DNA from: Owenweeksia sp.
GTDB taxonomy: Bacteria > Bacteroidota > Bacteroidia > Flavobacteriales > Schleiferiaceae
Length of the DNA stretch: 64,000 nucleotides
Reading direction: 5' to 3'
Assembly: GCA_028285465.1 (NCBI GenBank)
Contig: JANQPD010000085.1
Coordinates: forward strand, 1-64,000
Shown here: piece after piece, positions 56,945-64,000 of the stretch
How the letters are laid out: each line of letters begins with the position of its first letter
Position numbering within the stretch: the stretch's first letter is position 1
Made by a program: the position numbers and the translations under genes
Notes under the pieces: model-generated
What the model was told of the DNA's origin: nothing
What the model saw: only the letters and a program-made list of their open reading frames with translations
Database searches by the model: none

Positions 56945-58027
56945 TTGGAGCAGGAAAAACACATCCTGGTAGCTGTTCTCAACTGGGGATTGGGCCATGC
57001 TACACGTATGGTGCCCCTGATAAAGGAGTTGCAAAAACAGGGGTTTTCACCGGTACTGGCTTCTGATGGTGTGGCCCTGTGCTACCTGCAAAAGCAATTT
57101 CCGACTATGCCTGCACATAGGTTACCCGCTTACAATATTCAATACGGGGGCAGTTCCTTTATGGGAAACATGTTGCGACAGCTGCCAAAAATTGCCAAAG
57201 CCATACGGGCAGAACATAAAGAGGTGGCGCTTTTGGCGAAAAGGTACAGGCTACTCGGGATCCTAAGTGACAATCGTCTGGGGGCTTACCATGTGCGTAT
57301 TCCATGCATGTATGTCACCCATCAGTTAAACATCAAAGCCGGTATTTTTTCCGGCATAGCCGGTTTAGTACACCGCTTTTTCATAAGGCGGTTTACGCAC
57401 TGCCTGGTTCCCGATACGGAAGAAGAAAAAAATAGCCTGGCCGGAAAACTTAGCCACCCCTCCCGCTCCAGGAAGGCCTGCCAGTACATTGGTCCTTTAT
57501 CGCGTTTCATGGAGGGGCCGGGCATACCTGTTAAAGCCAGCCGGGGAGAAAAAAAGTATAAAGCTTGTATAGTGCTGAGTGGACCGGAGCCCGACCGTAG
57601 CGAATGGGAGGCTGAAGTAATGAGACAAACTACACACCTGAAGAGGCCTTTCGTACTCATACGAGGTACAGATAAACCCCTGGAAATCAATCCGCCGGAA
57701 TATGTAAAAGTAATGGGGCTGGCAGGAGAAGCAGAGCTGTTGAAGGCGCTTTCTGAAAGCGAAGTGGCCGTGAGCAGAAGCGGGTACTCTTCCATCATGG
57801 ACTATTGTTTCCTGCAAACAACCGCCTTGCTGGTTCCTACCCCGGGTCAGGGAGAGCAGGAATACCTGGCGGGGCGTTTAAAAGGATATTTTGCCATACA
57901 AAAACAAAGTGAATTCGACCTTAAAAAAGGAATTACACAAGCAAAAAAAAAGAAGGGCATACCCTTAGCATTGATTCCTGCTTCATCTGACTGGGCAAGC
58001 CTATTTGCTCTTTTTCAAGGTAAATGA
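56945..58027 (+). CDS. MurG-like glycosyltransferase, TTG start
   Basis: 360 residues with a GT-B fold. The N-terminus is HILVAVLNWGLGHATRMVPLIKELQKQGF. GILSDNRLGAYHVRIPCMYVTHQLNI and the C-terminal half FVLIRGTDKPL...YVKVMGLAGEAELLKALSESEVAVSRSGYSSIMDYC...LVPTPGQGEQEYLAGRL resemble the nucleotide-sugar site of MurG/GT28 enzymes. The TTG at 56945 is the only usable start: the frame is closed by the hppD stop codon 21 bp upstream and no ATG or GTG lies before the conserved core. Acceptor and donor are unknown. The 3' end overlaps the convergent histidine kinase gene by 27 bp. Confidence 0.8.
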   Translation: MEQEKHILVAVLNWGLGHATRMVPLIKELQKQGFSPVLASDGVALCYLQKQFPTMPAHRLPAYNIQYGGSSFMGNMLRQLPKIAKAIRAEHKEVALLAKRYRLLGILSDNRLGAYHVRIPCMYVTHQLNIKAGIFSGIAGLVHRFFIRRFTHCLVPDTEEEKNSLAGKLSHPSRSRKACQYIGPLSRFMEGPGIPVKASRGEKKYKACIVLSGPEPDRSEWEAEVMRQTTHLKRPFVLIRGTDKPLEINPPEYVKVMGLAGEAELLKALSESEVAVSRSGYSSIMDYCFLQTTALLVPTPGQGEQEYLAGRLKGYFAIQKQSEFDLKKGITQAKKKKGIPLALIPASSDWASLFALFQGK

Positions 58028-59047
58028 GAACGTGCTGCCGGCGTTTTCGCTACTCCGCACGTTAATGCCCTGTTTATGGGCTTCGAGAATATGCTTTACA
58101 ATAGAAAGTCCCAGACCCGTGCCGCCTGCTTTTCGGCTTCGGCTTTTGTCTACGCGGTAAAAGCGCTCAAACACCCGGGGGATATCTTCCTGGGGTATGC
58201 CGATGCCATCATCTGCAATTTCGGTTAAGATCTGGTTGTGCATATCGTAAAAGCGCACTTCCACATACCCTTTAGGTCGGCCGTACTTAATGGCGTTCAC
58301 GATCAGGTTGACCAATACCTGTGAAATTTTTTCGTGATCGGCATGCACCTTTAATGGCTTATCGTAGTCCTTCTTCAGGCGAAGTTGGATTTTTTCATCA
58401 GAAGCTTTGTCTTCCAGCATTTCAAATGTTTCCTTCACCAGTTCTACAATGTCAAAATTGCTGAGGTTCAGCTGTACGATGTTTGCTTCCAGGTTGCTGA
58501 TGGTCTCCAGGTCTTCTATAATACCGATCATCCGGTCTACGGATTTATTGGCACGTTTTAAATAGCGTTGGTTGATCTCGGGGTCTTCCAGACCACCGTC
58601 CAGCAGCGTAAGTAAATAGCCCTGAATATTAAAAACGGGTGTTTTTAACTCGTGCGAAACGTTTCCGATAAATTCGCGCCTGAAATCTTCGCGTTCGCGC
58701 AGCTGGGCAATTTCATTTCTGCGCTGCTCCGCCCATTCACTTACTTCCCGGGTTACCATATCCAGGTCGGTGGTCCGCACGGCCTCATCCTCATCTGCAT
58801 CACTGCCTACTTTAAGTTCATGGATATTTTTGTAAATGATCTTAACCTTATTGTAAATGAAGTTCTCAATGGTAAAGCGGGTGATAAAGAAGCCAATGGT
58901 GACCACAGCTATAGAGAAAACAAAGCGCGTGGCATAGGGAACATAAACCCTATCCCAGGCTTCGAGCAGGAAAAAAGACAAGAAGAGGAGCAGCCCAAAA
59001 AAAAGAGCCACGGCAAACGCCAGAATGTTAGGCTTTTCAAAGCGCAT
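58001..59047 (-). CDS. PhoR-like sensor histidine kinase
   Basis: 348 residues. Two transmembrane helices (about 8-30 and 41-58) with almost no periplasmic loop, then a short linker and the HisKA domain EFIGNVSHELKTPVFNIQGY with phosphorylated H132. The HATPase part has VLVNLIVNAIKYG (N box), EIADDGIGIPQEDIPRVFERFYRVD (G1/F) and GGTGLGLSIVKHI (G2). The lack of a sensor loop is typical of PhoR-type kinases that sense through partners. It follows its response regulator by 17 bp. Phosphate sensing is inferred from family and the nearby box-like repeats. Confidence 0.9.
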   Translation of the reverse strand: MRFEKPNILAFAVALFFGLLLFLSFFLLEAWDRVYVPYATRFVFSIAVVTIGFFITRFTIENFIYNKVKIIYKNIHELKVGSDADEDEAVRTTDLDMVTREVSEWAEQRRNEIAQLREREDFRREFIGNVSHELKTPVFNIQGYLLTLLDGGLEDPEINQRYLKRANKSVDRMIGIIEDLETISNLEANIVQLNLSNFDIVELVKETFEMLEDKASDEKIQLRLKKDYDKPLKVHADHEKISQVLVNLIVNAIKYGRPKGYVEVRFYDMHNQILTEIADDGIGIPQEDIPRVFERFYRVDKSRSRKAGGTGLGLSIVKHILEAHKQGINVRSSENAGSTFSFTLKKSK

Positions 59048-59064: not shown

Positions 59065-59748
59065 TTACGCGTCAAATTTATACCCCACACCTTTTACCGT
59101 GCGGATGTATTTGTCGCTGATTTTCTCACGCAATTTACGGATATGTACATCAATGGTGCGCCCGCCTACTACCACATCGTTGCCCCAGATCTTATCGAGG
59201 ATCTCATCACGATGAAAAACCTTTCCTGGGCGTGAAGTAAGTAAGGTCAACAATTCGAATTCTTTACGGGGCAGGTCGAGTTTTTCTCCTTTATAACTTA
59301 CCTGGTATTTGTCGTGATCTATAGTAAGCTTGTCAAATTCCTGGATGGAGCTTGATTTTTGCGTTTGGCCGTGCCTGCGCAGCAGAGCCTTGATGCGGCT
59401 TACCAGTACTTTCGGTTTAATGGGTTTGGTGATGTAGTCGTCAGCGCCGGCATCGAAACCGGCCACCTGGCTGTAGTCTTCACCCCGGGCCGTTAAAAAG
59501 GCAATCAATACATCCTGCAGGTCGGAAGAAGCCCGGATCTTATCACAAGCCTCTATGCCGTCCATGCCCGGCATCATTACATCTAAAAGGATCAAGTGTG
59601 GCTGCTCTTTATGCGCCAGGTCGAGGCCATCTTCTCCGTTGCTGGCGGTATGTACCTCAAAGCCTTCTTTTCTTAGGTTATAGCTTACGAATTCTATGAT
59701 ATCCGGCTCATCGTCAACCAGTAGTATCTTATAGTCGCTTTCTTTCAT
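59065..59748 (-). CDS. PhoB/OmpR-family response regulator
   Basis: 227 residues. The receiver domain has ILLVDDEPDI, phospho-acceptor D56 in LILLDVMMPGMDG, and TKPIKPKVL with the conserved Lys. The C-terminal winged helix has FELLTLLTSRPGKVFHRDEILDKIWGNDVVVGGRTIDVHIRKLREKI and the end VKGVGYKFDA. This is the PhoB type. It heads a two-gene operon with the kinase. A TACTTTTG promoter at 59775 and TTAAC repeats with an 11-bp period upstream suggest that it activates its own gene. Confidence 0.92.
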   Translation of the reverse strand: MKESDYKILLVDDEPDIIEFVSYNLRKEGFEVHTASNGEDGLDLAHKEQPHLILLDVMMPGMDGIEACDKIRASSDLQDVLIAFLTARGEDYSQVAGFDAGADDYITKPIKPKVLVSRIKALLRRHGQTQKSSSIQEFDKLTIDHDKYQVSYKGEKLDLPRKEFELLTLLTSRPGKVFHRDEILDKIWGNDVVVGGRTIDVHIRKLREKISDKYIRTVKGVGYKFDA

Positions 59749-59774
59749 GCGTAGTGTATTGCATTAGCTGCGGG

Positions 59775-59782
59775 CAAAAGTA
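59775..59782 (-). promoter_or_regulatory. Bacteroidota -7 element TACTTTTG for the response regulator gene
   Basis: An exact TAnnTTTG on the minus strand, 26 bp upstream of the ATG at 59748. TTAAC-type boxes at 59810-59825 lie about 40-55 bp upstream of the expected transcription start. Confidence 0.7.
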
Positions 59783-59809
59783 AGTATATAAACAGGTGCC
59801 GTTCGCATC

Positions 59810-59856
59810 TTAACAAATCTTTAATGCAATATTATGGATGTTAACACGGTGTTAAC
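59810..59856. promoter_or_regulatory. PhoP/PhoB-box-like direct repeats with 11-bp period
   Basis: TTAAC at 59810, TTAAT at 59821 and TTATG at 59832, each 11 bp apart. Then TTAAC at 59841 and 59852, again 11 bp apart, both as GTTAAC; together these two form the 17-bp palindrome GTTAACACGGTGTTAAC. Further copies TTAACA (59945), ATAACA (59956) and TTAACA (59989) continue in the same 11-bp phase. Tandem boxes at one helical turn are the usual binding mode of OmpR/PhoB regulators. Confidence 0.6.
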
Positions 59857-60005
59857 CGCAAGGGGGAAAGGACTTTACATTTTTGTGCGGTAAATTTCGT
59901 ACAGTCCACAGCACTAAAGGAGTTAGGGTAAAAATTATTTTGGCTTAACATACGCATAACAGCACCCCCCTTTCTTTGCGGCAATATTTTAACACAAAAG
60001 TTCTG

Positions 60006-61193
60006 ATGAAAAAAATTAATGCAATCGTATTCGCTGCTGCTGCAGCTTTTGCTCTTACCTCTTGTGATGAGGATGACCCCGTAGAGGAGCCCTCAAATGA
60101 AAATGTAAGATCAGGTCTTATTTCTTCTGACGAGACCTGGACTACCGGTAATGTATACACGCTCAACGGTAGGGTTACCGTAACCAGCGGGGCTACGCTT
60201 ACCATTGAGCCCGGTGTTATTGTGAAGGCTAAGCCCGGTGGAGGGGCGTCCGCTTCTGCTTTGTTGATTGCCCGTGACGGTATGATCAACGCACAAGGTA
60301 CGGCTACTTCTCCCATTATCTTCACCAGCACAGCGGATGAGATTCAGCCCGGGCAGATCAACAGCCCGAACCTTGATCCTGAAAGCAACGGCTTCTGGGG
60401 AGGCGTGATCATCTTGGGTCAGGCACCTATCTCTGCTTCTCAAGCCTCTGTGCAGATTGAAGGTATTCCTACTTCTGATCAAAATGGTTTGTACGGCGGT
60501 TCTGAATCTGGCCACAGTTCAGGTACTTTCTCCTATGTTTCTATCCGTCACGGAGGTACAAACATCGGTGCAGGTAACGAGATCAACGGGCTTACCCTGG
60601 GTGGTGTAGGCTCCGGTACTACAATCGACCATGTAGAGATTGTAGGGAACCAGGATGACGGCATCGAGTGGTTTGGCGGTTCCGTAAGCGTAGAAAACGC
60701 TTTGGTATGGAACACCGGTGATGACGGGCTTGATACGGACCAGGACTGGACAGGTACCTTAGATGGCTTTATCGTAGTAAACGCAGGCGACCGTGCAATG
60801 GAATTGGATGGTCCGGAAGGCTCTTCTTCTACCGGTCTTAACCACACTTTTACCAACGGTACCGTTTTCTTAGGCGGTAGTTCCGAGTTGATCGACTTTG
60901 ACGACAACACCAATGTAGACATCAACAATGTATACTTCTACGGTATTGACGATGAGGATCCACAAGTGGTTTCTGGTTACGCCGGTTACCTGGCTGCCAT
61001 GTCAGGTACCGTAGCTAATCTTGAAGCTACCTTCCCTACAGGGGTTGACGTGTTAGACGTATTTGCCGGTTTTGATGTTTCGATCATCACTTCCGTAGCT
61101 GCTAATGCCAACACGGTAGGACCAACCAATGACGATGATTACACCTGGACCTGGGCCAGCCAGTCAGGTGCTTTAGCCGGAATTGGTCTGTAA
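60006..61193 (+). CDS. Surface lipoprotein with parallel beta-helix-like repeats, partner of a TonB receptor
   Basis: 395 residues from the ATG at 60006, which gives the lipoprotein signal MKKINAIVFAAAAAFALTSC with C20; the upstream in-frame start adds ten residues ahead of it. DEDDPVEEP follows the cysteine, an acidic stretch favouring the outer surface. The mature part has repeated short strands typical of right-handed beta-helices (LTIEPGVIVKAKPGG, FTSTADE, WGGVIILG, TIDHVEIVGNQDDGIEWFGGSVSVENALVWNTGDDGLD, INNVYFYGIDDED). Such proteins often neighbour TonB receptors in Bacteroidota. A role in binding a phosphorus compound is only inferred from the PhoB-like neighbour and box-like repeats. 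Confidence 0.8.
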   Translation: MKKINAIVFAAAAAFALTSCDEDDPVEEPSNENVRSGLISSDETWTTGNVYTLNGRVTVTSGATLTIEPGVIVKAKPGGGASASALLIARDGMINAQGTATSPIIFTSTADEIQPGQINSPNLDPESNGFWGGVIILGQAPISASQASVQIEGIPTSDQNGLYGGSESGHSSGTFSYVSIRHGGTNIGAGNEINGLTLGGVGSGTTIDHVEIVGNQDDGIEWFGGSVSVENALVWNTGDDGLDTDQDWTGTLDGFIVVNAGDRAMELDGPEGSSSTGLNHTFTNGTVFLGGSSELIDFDDNTNVDINNVYFYGIDDEDPQVVSGYAGYLAAMSGTVANLEATFPTGVDVLDVFAGFDVSIITSVAANANTVGPTNDDDYTWTWASQSGALAGIGL

Positions 61194-61215
61194 GCCTTAA
61201 TAAAGATATGTGTAG

Positions 61216-61254
61216 AAGCTTGCTTTAGCATTTGGCTAAAGCAAGCTTTTTTCG
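61216..61254 (+). terminator. Terminator between lipoprotein and TonB receptor genes
   Basis: A 14-bp perfect stem AAGCTTGCTTTAGC / GCTAAAGCAAGCTT with a 5-nt loop and a T-rich tail, 22 bp after the lipoprotein stop. It may fully end the transcript or act as an attenuator giving more lipoprotein than receptor. Confidence 0.9.
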
Positions 61255-61327: not shown

Positions 61328-64000
61328 ATGAAAACACTTTTCCAAACCCTCTTTTTTTGCCTGGGTATCATGTGGCTATCCAGTACGGCATTACACGCCC
61401 AAAACGGTACAATAAGAGGTACGATCATTGACGAGATTGGCGAACCGCTCTTCAGCGCAAATGCTGTGGTAAAAGGCACCACCATTGGTGCTACTACCGA
61501 TTTTGACGGGAAGTTTGACATCTCCATTGCACCGGGTACCTATTCGGTAGAGTTGTCTTTTATCGGTTACCAGTCAGTACTCACCACGGATGTAGTGGTA
61601 AAACAAGGAGAGGTTACTTCTATGGGCACCATTAAGCTGGAACCCTCCACCAACGAGCTCGAAGCGGTAACCATTACCGTAGAAGCTGTGCGCAACACAG
61701 AGACAGCACTCCTTACCTTGAAAAAGAAATCCGTAGCGGTGATGGATGGCATCTCCGCCTCTAAACTCAAGCTAACAGGCGACTCTGATGTAGGCGACGC
61801 AGCCAAACGTGTAACCGGAGTTTCGGTAGAAGGAGGAAAGTACGTATACGTAAGGGGGCTGGGAGACCGCTATACGAAAACCATGCTGAACAACGTAGAT
61901 ATTCCAGGTCTTGACCCTGATCGGAATGCCGTTCAGATCGACATTTTCCCTACCACATTGATCAGCAATATGACGGTGGTAAAATCAGCTGTTGCTTCAT
62001 TGCCTGCCGATTTTGCCGGGGGGGTGGTAAACATTGAGACCAAAGATTTTCCCGAGAATAAAATATTAAACGTTTCGGTAGGGATCGGGTATAACCCTTC
62101 CATGCACCTCAACAACAACTACCTTACCTACGAGGGAGGCAATGTAGATTTCCTGGGTTTTGACGATGGTGCCCGTGCCCTTCCTGCCCGGGCCGAAAAT
62201 GATCCCATTCCGAGTCCTCCTACAGGCTTTCCGGACAACCAGGTAAATGACTTTGTAAACCAGTTTTCATCCATTCTGGGAGCAGATCAAAACACCAGCT
62301 TGCTAAACGGCAGCCTCGGTCTTTCTATGGGGAACCAGTACTTACTTAAAAATGGCAACAAGCTGGGGTACGTGTTTGCCGCTACGTATAAAAACGAATC
62401 CCGCTATTATGATGATGTAACCTTCGGGGAATACATCGTGCCCACTGCTCCGGATTCTACCGAAATGGAGTACACTACCTTGCGCCAGGGTCGCATTGGA
62501 GAAAACAACGTACTGGTTGGCGGGCTGGCGGGTTTAGCCTATAAAACAAACCTGTCTAAATATCGCCTGACGCTCATGCACCTGCAAAACGGAGAAAGTG
62601 CGGCAGGTGACTTTTTTGTAGACAATAGCGAGAACCTGGGACAGTCGGGCTTTATCGCATACGCCAACTCTTTAACTTACAGCCAAAGGGGCCTTAGCAA
62701 CTTACTCTTCCAGGGAGAGCATCACGACCAGGAAGATGTCTGGGAAGTGAACTGGCGTGTTTCTCCGACCTATTCGAACATTACGGAGCCCGACCTGCGC
62801 AGTGCAGCTTTTACGATCACCTTGCAAGGGGATTCTATTTTTAACGCAGGCGCAGGAGGTTACCCCAAAAGGATCTGGCGATACCTGGATGAGGTAAACG
62901 TGGTAGAGAAAATAGACGTTACCAAAAAAGCGAAAATGTTTACGCGGGATGCAAAAATCGGGTTTGGGCACAGCTATTTGTTTAAGTACCGCAATTACAA
63001 CATCCTTACGTATAGCATGCAATCGCAGCAACAAACCCCAACTTTGAACGGGATAGAGTTTAACGACATACTAAACGGCAGTAACCTCTATCCCAATGAT
63101 CCGGGATTGTATTACATCTCGGAAAACGGCAATGGAAACCCCAATCCCAATGAGTATTCTTCTAATGTAAACAATATAGCATTATACGGCTCGTTGGAGG
63201 CCTCTCCTTTGTATCGCTTAAAGGTAATTCTGGGCTTGCGCGCCGAATACTTCCTGCAACGCCATACCGGTCGTAACCAACAACAAACAAGGGTTTTGGA
63301 TAATGAGCTCGTGCTAAACTCGCTCGATCTCTTCCCATCTGCGAACTTCATCTATGCCCTTACGGAAGACCAGAACCTGCGTTTTTCTTATTTCCGCTCG
63401 ATCGCCCGGCCTTCTTTTAAAGAGCTTTCTTTTGCGCAGATCCTTGACCCTATCTCCAACCGTACCTTTAACGGGGGCCTTCTGCCTTATACTGACGTGA
63501 ATGGGAATGTGGTTTGGGATGGAAACCTTACCGAAACCCGGATCAACAACTTTGATGTACGCTGGGAGATGTACGAGGAGAACGGAGGATTGGTCTCGTT
63601 CAGCGGTTTCGTGAAGTTGTTTGACAATGCTATTGAACTGGTGCGTATCCCCGAAGCGCAAACTACTTCTGATTTTCAACCCCGAAACGTGGGGAACGGA
63701 CAGGTTTTTGGCGCAGAGTTTGAATTCATAAAAAGTCTTGGCTTCATCATGCCTGCCTTAAAGCCCCTTAGCTTTAGCGGAAACATTACCTACGTATACT
63801 CGCGTATAGAGATGTCGGATACCGAATTTGAGATCCGCAAGGCCTTTGAAAAAGAAGGCCAGACTATAGAGCGTACCCGGGCTATGGCGGGGCAAGCTCC
63901 TTATATCATAAACGCGGGTTTTTCCTACAACAACTTGGAAACCAAGTTAAACATCGGCGCTTTCTACAACGTGAAAGGCAGAACACTGGAAGTTGTGGGT
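61328..64000 (+). CDS. TonB-dependent receptor, partial (C-terminus outside window)
   Basis: 891 residues are visible, with no stop before the window edge. Signal peptide MKTLFQTLFFCLGIMWLSS; then a carboxypeptidase-regulatory-like domain (about 26-110, GTIRGTIIDEIGEPLFSANAVVKGTTIG...FIGYQSV). A plug domain (about 120-250) has VGDAAKRVTGVSVEGGKYVYVRGLGDRYTKTMLNNVDIPGLDPDRNAVQIDIFP and FAGGVVNIETK. Barrel strands with the typical FRSIARPSFKELSFAQILDP and ITYVYSRIEM follow. It is not of the SusC type. It imports a ligand across the outer membrane with TonB; the substrate is unknown. The beta-helix lipoprotein upstream is its likely partner. Confidence 0.92.
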   Translation, partial: MKTLFQTLFFCLGIMWLSSTALHAQNGTIRGTIIDEIGEPLFSANAVVKGTTIGATTDFDGKFDISIAPGTYSVELSFIGYQSVLTTDVVVKQGEVTSMGTIKLEPSTNELEAVTITVEAVRNTETALLTLKKKSVAVMDGISASKLKLTGDSDVGDAAKRVTGVSVEGGKYVYVRGLGDRYTKTMLNNVDIPGLDPDRNAVQIDIFPTTLISNMTVVKSAVASLPADFAGGVVNIETKDFPENKILNVSVGIGYNPSMHLNNNYLTYEGGNVDFLGFDDGARALPARAENDPIPSPPTGFPDNQVNDFVNQFSSILGADQNTSLLNGSLGLSMGNQYLLKNGNKLGYVFAATYKNESRYYDDVTFGEYIVPTAPDSTEMEYTTLRQGRIGENNVLVGGLAGLAYKTNLSKYRLTLMHLQNGESAAGDFFVDNSENLGQSGFIAYANSLTYSQRGLSNLLFQGEHHDQEDVWEVNWRVSPTYSNITEPDLRSAAFTITLQGDSIFNAGAGGYPKRIWRYLDEVNVVEKIDVTKKAKMFTRDAKIGFGHSYLFKYRNYNILTYSMQSQQQTPTLNGIEFNDILNGSNLYPNDPGLYYISENGNGNPNPNEYSSNVNNIALYGSLEASPLYRLKVILGLRAEYFLQRHTGRNQQQTRVLDNELVLNSLDLFPSANFIYALTEDQNLRFSYFRSIARPSFKELSFAQILDPISNRTFNGGLLPYTDVNGNVVWDGNLTETRINNFDVRWEMYEENGGLVSFSGFVKLFDNAIELVRIPEAQTTSDFQPRNVGNGQVFGAEFEFIKSLGFIMPALKPLSFSGNITYVYSRIEMSDTEFEIRKAFEKEGQTIERTRAMAGQAPYIINAGFSYNNLETKLNIGAFYNVKGRTLEVVG

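Follow-up and report, generated by a model that had tools for sequence, protein, structure and literature searches.

At activated promoters of Bacillus subtilis, the PhoP-type box consists of four TTAACA-like repeats. The Pho box of Escherichia coli is built of two 11-nt units (PMC4415409), and its direct repeats lie 10 bp upstream of the -10 element (PMC1906773). In the cyanobacterial SphR box, 8-mers of the type CTTAACCT are joined by 3-bp linkers, which gives an 11-bp period (PMC1906773). For phosphate genes of Bacteroidota, we found neither a published operator with its geometry nor a promoter code in the literature searched. The phoBR cluster of Flavobacterium johnsoniae (PUSIV, Fjoh_0541-0549) is induced by Pi depletion, with log2 fold changes of 9.9 for the lipoprotein (FII), 8.0 for the receptor and 3.1 for PhoB, and PlcP and PhoX-like genes are also strongly phosphate-induced there (PMC8115612); we found no operator or promoter for the cluster in that paper. 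PhoB of Bacteroides fragilis binds the pstC promoter, and the passages on this binding give no motif (PMC3547664). An OmpR-family regulator of Riemerella anatipestifer named "PhoP" is reported to be up in phosphate starvation; the relevant passages describe a DAP-seq motif TTTAACA, likened to ArcA, with hundreds of targets (PMC9603813). Outside the phylum, Caulobacter makes the surface lipoprotein ElpS on phosphate starvation, from a gene beside a type II secretion system on which release of the protein depends (PMC2996285). An identity of 31-36% with such a lipoprotein of Caulobacter was reported for the FI-FIII lipoproteins of F. johnsoniae (PMC8115612).

The window analysed here is a stretch of 64,000 nucleotides. 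It contains a related gene cluster with the following features:

56972-58027, plus strand: PF04101 glycosyltransferase gene, convergent with the kinase gene (compare Fjoh_0541)
58001-59047, minus strand: PhoR/PnpS-like histidine kinase (NF046044, 272 bits; TIGR02966, 242 bits; under cut-off)
59065-59748, minus strand: PhoB-like response regulator (PF00072, PF00486)
59775-59782, minus strand: regulator -7 element TACTTTTG; AAAA and TA of (C/T)AAAA(A/G)TA are invariant in the alignment
59810-59825, entered on the minus strand: regulator-proximal box TTAACAAATCTTTAAT, which reads on the plus strand, opposite to regulator transcription; in 10 of 10 relatives
59840-59856, no strand: distal palindromic pair GTTAACACGGTGTTAAC, a possible accessory regulator site
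59876-59885, plus strand: TACATTTTTG, the lipoprotein -7 proposed in the initial annotation; its alignment columns are not conserved
59945-59960, plus strand: lipoprotein Pho box TTAACATACGCATAAC, two half-sites 11 bp apart, with fixed spacing in 10 of 10 family alignments
59971-59978, plus strand: lipoprotein -7 element TTTCTTTG of the TAnnTTTG type, 10 bases after the box; TTTGC is invariant
60006-61193, plus strand: predicted surface lipoprotein of 395 residues, FII-like and beta-rich
61214-61250, plus strand: terminator-like hairpin between lipoprotein and receptor genes, 16 pairs with a T-rich tail
61328-64000, plus strand, continuing past the window to G000:C68:64225: TonB-dependent receptor (PF00593, PF07715, PF13715)

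Judged by gene set and domains, phoB, phoR, a TonB receptor, a lipoprotein and PF04101 lie together here as in phoBR/PUSIV clusters of the F. johnsoniae type. Both clusters include the PF04101 glycosyltransferase, PhoR, PhoB, the TonB receptor and a lipoprotein without a Pfam domain, and the F. johnsoniae cluster is induced by phosphate depletion. They differ in that, by the numbering of the F. johnsoniae genes, the receptor lies between PhoB and the lipoprotein there. The functional half of the initial annotation, a lipoprotein/TonB receptor pair serving under phosphate limitation, is therefore already shown in a relative by the expression data from the syntenic cluster (PMC8115612).

Regulator and kinase both have their highest scores in phosphate families, though under the curated cut-offs (for the regulator, TIGR02154 PhoB, 225 of 296 bits; NF053854, 219 of 270). 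The regulator is the best match of its genome to the Bacteroidota PhoB model; the PhoB cut-off is passed in only 1 of 16 relatives' genomes. The lipoprotein has no Pfam or NCBIfam match, its cysteine at residue 20 is invariant, and its AlphaFold model is beta-rich with a pLDDT of 85. A fold search with it listed mostly right-handed beta-helix proteins, none at E < 0.001. It resembles Caulobacter ElpS as a predicted surface lipoprotein of phosphate starvation and differs from it in that the ElpS gene has a type II secretion system as its neighbour. That the lipoprotein and receptor import a phosphorus compound is a guess. On visual inspection, most of 20 Bacteroidota relatives have hairpins comparable to that at 61214-61250, GC-rich and with T-rich tails; the hairpin may raise the lipoprotein over the receptor or set their stoichiometry. 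Downstream of the receptor follow a lamin-tail/T9SS protein and then a Na/Pi cotransporter with PhoU domains. The cotransporter gene occupies G000:C68:68324-70060, beyond the window and about 9 kb from the regulator. We did not find PstS in this genome, which carries the Na/Pi cotransporter-PhoU protein instead.

The initial annotation had placed eight TTAAC-type elements, mostly 11 bp apart, between the regulator and lipoprotein genes. Direct reading of the sequence found words at all eight positions, five of them exact TTAAC (59810, 59841, 59852, 59945 and 59989) and three degenerate (TTAAT at 59821, TTATG at 59832 and ATAAC at 59956). The series itself reduces to three genuine 11-bp steps, 59810/59821, 59841/59852 and 59945/59956. 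The word at 59832 is not conserved in an alignment of ten genomes, and that at 59989 is not a box: located past the conserved -7 element, it probably belongs to the transcribed leader. Both TACTTTTG, on the minus strand, and TACATTTTTG are present where they had been claimed.

In many genomes of the family, which probably includes Owenweeksia, the regulator and lipoprotein genes lie side by side and are transcribed divergently. We aligned ten such regions as a footprint, and two islands remained. The pairs at 59945/59956 and 59810/59821, conserved in all ten genomes as Pho-box-like 11-bp repeats, contain most of the invariant columns of the gap. Island 1 reads TTAAC-N6-(T/A)TAAC-N14-TTTGC (59945-59979), with every spacing fixed in 10 of 10 genomes. 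Its second half-site is separated from TTTG by exactly N14, that is, by 10 bases from the 8-base -7 element. Island 2 (59810-59825) reads TTAACAAWTCnTTAA and lies 34-35 bp from the regulator -7 box in 10 of 10 genomes, at a variable distance from the lipoprotein box. This difference assigns island 1 to the lipoprotein promoter and island 2 to that of the regulator, in agreement with the earlier proposal that one site is tied to the regulator's own promoter. The TTAAC words are thus real, and they are very probably the docking sites (Pho boxes) of a phosphate-starvation regulator that controls its own gene and the adjacent lipoprotein gene.

The boxes share with known Pho boxes the direct repeats of 11-bp period, seen in the ten-genome alignment and at Bacteroidota loci, and the replacement of the upstream promoter element by a box about 10 bp before the downstream one, here a -7 element assigned by consensus. 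The 10 bases between the end of the second TTAAC and the 8-base -7 element reproduce the geometry of E. coli, where 11-nt direct repeats also stand 10 bp from the downstream promoter element; the core is CTGTCA there and TTAAC here, and a sigma70 -10 takes the place of the TAnnTTTG -7. With the SphR box the locus shares the 11-bp period and the core, (C)TTAAC here, whereas the cyanobacterial box has at least three repeats against usually two conserved ones here, and a different promoter type. Nor do we find the four repeats of the B. subtilis PhoP-type box: each lipoprotein promoter has two conserved half-sites, as does the one in the window, and the PhoX-type promoter of the same genome has three steps.

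A gene-blind scan of 60 family genomes with the promoter pattern gave 21 matches, compared with 19 for the reversed pattern; gene placement was read for the 21. Nineteen of them precede phosphate-type genes: 16 the lipoprotein, two PF01663 phosphatases and one a PF05787 PhoX protein. The other two lie before pgk and inside a gene. With up to 2 mismatches, the genome of the window has 52 matches to the pattern and 42 to its reverse. Neither count is clearly enriched over the reversed pattern, and only placement is therefore informative.

We sampled the regulon of this genome by pattern and family searches. Few of the 52 matches are promoter-placed. Among them are the matches before the lipoprotein gene, before a PhoX homologue (C33:17246) and before a PlcP-type metallophosphoesterase (C47:101039), and in each of the three the TTTG lies 27 bases before the ATG. 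The PhoX homologue is named by its 70% identity to a relative's PF05787 protein; it has no Pfam PhoX match itself, and a PDB sequence search with it gave none. The large PhoX-domain gene on C98 continues off its contig, with its promoter outside the sequence. Other promoter-placed matches precede genes without a known phosphate role, such as a redoxin-like gene and a T9SS-tail protein. An exact pair also precedes the gene of a choice-of-anchor-I protein (G000:C20:6924), where the distance to TTTG differs from the usual one by one base. Exact TTAACN6TTAAC stands before two further genes (G000:C32:8192 and G000:C90:13802), candidate regulon members whose N-termini resemble the carboxypeptidase-like domains of TonB receptors. 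Separately, TTAACCAAACCTTAAC occurs three times on one 33-kb contig (G000:C10), in stretches without long open frames, and is perhaps a dispersed repeat.

The spacing was tested by keeping the words and varying both gaps (72 combinations) in the stretch of about 160 bases preceding other phosphate genes. Of the 72, (6,14) was the maximum for PhoX genes and for two sets of PlcP-type genes, and weakly so for PafA-type genes; window genes, taken as control, were flat. After deduplication, PhoX genes had a mean score of 10.76 of 14, and 11 of 25 scored at least 12 of 14 (0.13 in shuffles); the corresponding values for PlcP were 11.05 and 7 of 20 (0.06 in shuffles). Only 3 of 30 PafA-type phosphatases scored at least 12 of 14; PafA is not Pi-induced in F. 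johnsoniae (PMC8115612). The check suggested in the initial annotation, a search for the motif before other phosphate genes, thus located it upstream of PhoX-type, PlcP-type and some PafA-type genes, the first two in this genome as well as in relatives.

Across the phylum, the lipoprotein is encoded at 80 named Bacteroidota loci, with a TonB receptor downstream in 79; at the other one the contig ends first. TTAAY pairs at 11 bp occur upstream of the lipoprotein at 25 of 56 non-redundant loci outside the own family (shuffle mean 0.7, maximum 4), and harmonics are seen in the same 56 regions, at distance 22 in 13 and at distance 33 in 10. The N14 to TTTG is less strict outside the family: all (6,n) spacings are raised and (6,14) is highest. 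With a PSSM built on the own family, few lipoprotein promoters were recovered in other families, perhaps because the receptor can precede the lipoprotein there. This is the case in a genome of another family (G002), probably that of a Flavobacterium, where the order is phoB, receptor, lipoprotein, and the gap between phoB and receptor contains ATAAC, CTAAC and TTTAC at 11-bp steps, followed by N14 and TTTG.

Could the words simply be expected in A+T-rich DNA? The 64 kb contain 6 matches to TTAAYN6TTAAY where 1.2 are expected, and none of 100 shuffles got to 6; three of the six fall in this gap, two of them being both strands of one palindrome. Conservation is a stronger argument against chance than this count. 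The raw counts of the full pattern, close to those of its reverse, speak for chance. Against it are columns and spacing that are invariant over divergent genomes, a spacing-specific recurrence before other phosphate genes and a phylum-wide 11-bp periodicity, and we regard this explanation as scarcely credible. The pair at 59841/59852 admits two further readings. The initial annotation had the lipoprotein transcribed from TACATTTT at 59876 under this pair; the words and the 19-base gap do exist, and the pair matches exactly. In the ten-genome alignment, however, only about half of the relatives keep it, as two TTAA words at an 11-bp distance, against an invariant 59945-59979, so that such a start is very improbable and the promoter is placed at 59945/59956 with TTTCTTTG instead. 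The same pair forms a nearly perfect palindrome, GTTAACACGGTGTTAAC, whose two-fold symmetry would suit the operator of an unrelated dimeric repressor. Since relatives retain the direct TTAA words at 11 bp and not the palindrome, this too is improbable, if slightly less so; the pair may be an accessory site.

A better alternative, still unlikely, is that the boxes are bound mainly by another regulator of the OmpR/ArcA type, or that the neighbouring regulator senses, for example, redox or envelope stress. The R. anatipestifer PhoP lends it some weight: this OmpR-family protein is also from Bacteroidota, and the most conserved letters of its ArcA-likened motif, TTTAACA, with hundreds of targets, agree with the boxes here, so that phosphate regulation may not be the only use of TTAAC repeats (PMC9603813). 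The comparison is one of motifs, the passages concerned giving no repeat spacing or promoter geometry. The own regulator also falls under the PhoB cut-off. Against another regulator or signal are the linkage of the boxes to a PhoB-like pair, their co-occurrence with PhoX and PlcP, and the behaviour of the syntenic cluster in F. johnsoniae, which is induced by phosphate depletion.

We therefore consider it likely, from sequence comparison, that the gap is a divergent phosphate-starvation control region in which a PhoB-type Pho box, joined to the Bacteroidota -7 element, activates the surface lipoprotein/TonB-receptor system, with feedback on phoB. The basis is sequence conservation, fixed spacing, co-occurrence with phosphate genes and synteny with the Pi-induced F. 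johnsoniae cluster. Against it stand the scores of regulator and kinase below the curated PhoB/PhoR cut-offs, the inversion of the regulator box relative to regulator transcription, the raw pattern counts near the reversed-pattern control, and the likening of the Riemerella TTTAACA motif to ArcA in passages of that report (PMC9603813).

When phosphate is scarce, the adjacent PhoR-like kinase would phosphorylate the PhoB-like regulator, which would then bind the 11-bp TTAAC direct repeats head to tail. At the lipoprotein gene, the regulator would occupy 59945-59960, leaving ten bases to the -7 element downstream, and so replace the -33 element and recruit RNA polymerase. Activation from such a site is proposed because the geometry is that of the E. 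coli Pho box and the core that of the cyanobacterial boxes. Lipoprotein expression would rise strongly, and that of the TonB receptor, read past the terminator, less so. Feedback on phoB would come from the second site, possibly with assistance from 59841-59856. This second box, at 59810-59825, is located some 40-56 bases upstream of the start estimated for the regulator; the feedback could have either sign, since the box has the opposite orientation and a longer spacing.

The phosphate response of the gene cluster was already known in Flavobacterium; new are the DNA code and the fixed promoter geometry, which recur in other Bacteroidota. A real possibility, if somewhat short of probable, is a phylum-wide Bacteroidota Pho promoter code of 11-bp TTAAC repeats at a fixed 14 bases from the -7 TTTG, whose most conserved target would be a surface lipoprotein/TonB-receptor pair importing a phosphorus compound, with a conserved intergenic terminator yielding lipoprotein excess. 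Phosphate-responsive genes of Bacteroidota have so far been listed by transcriptomics and proteomics. With the rule TTAAC-N6-TTAAC-N14-TTTG, phosphate regulons could be predicted in uncultured Bacteroidota of soils and the sea, organisms of importance for the turnover of organic phosphorus; the code also suggests that the lipoprotein/TonB pair is a core function.
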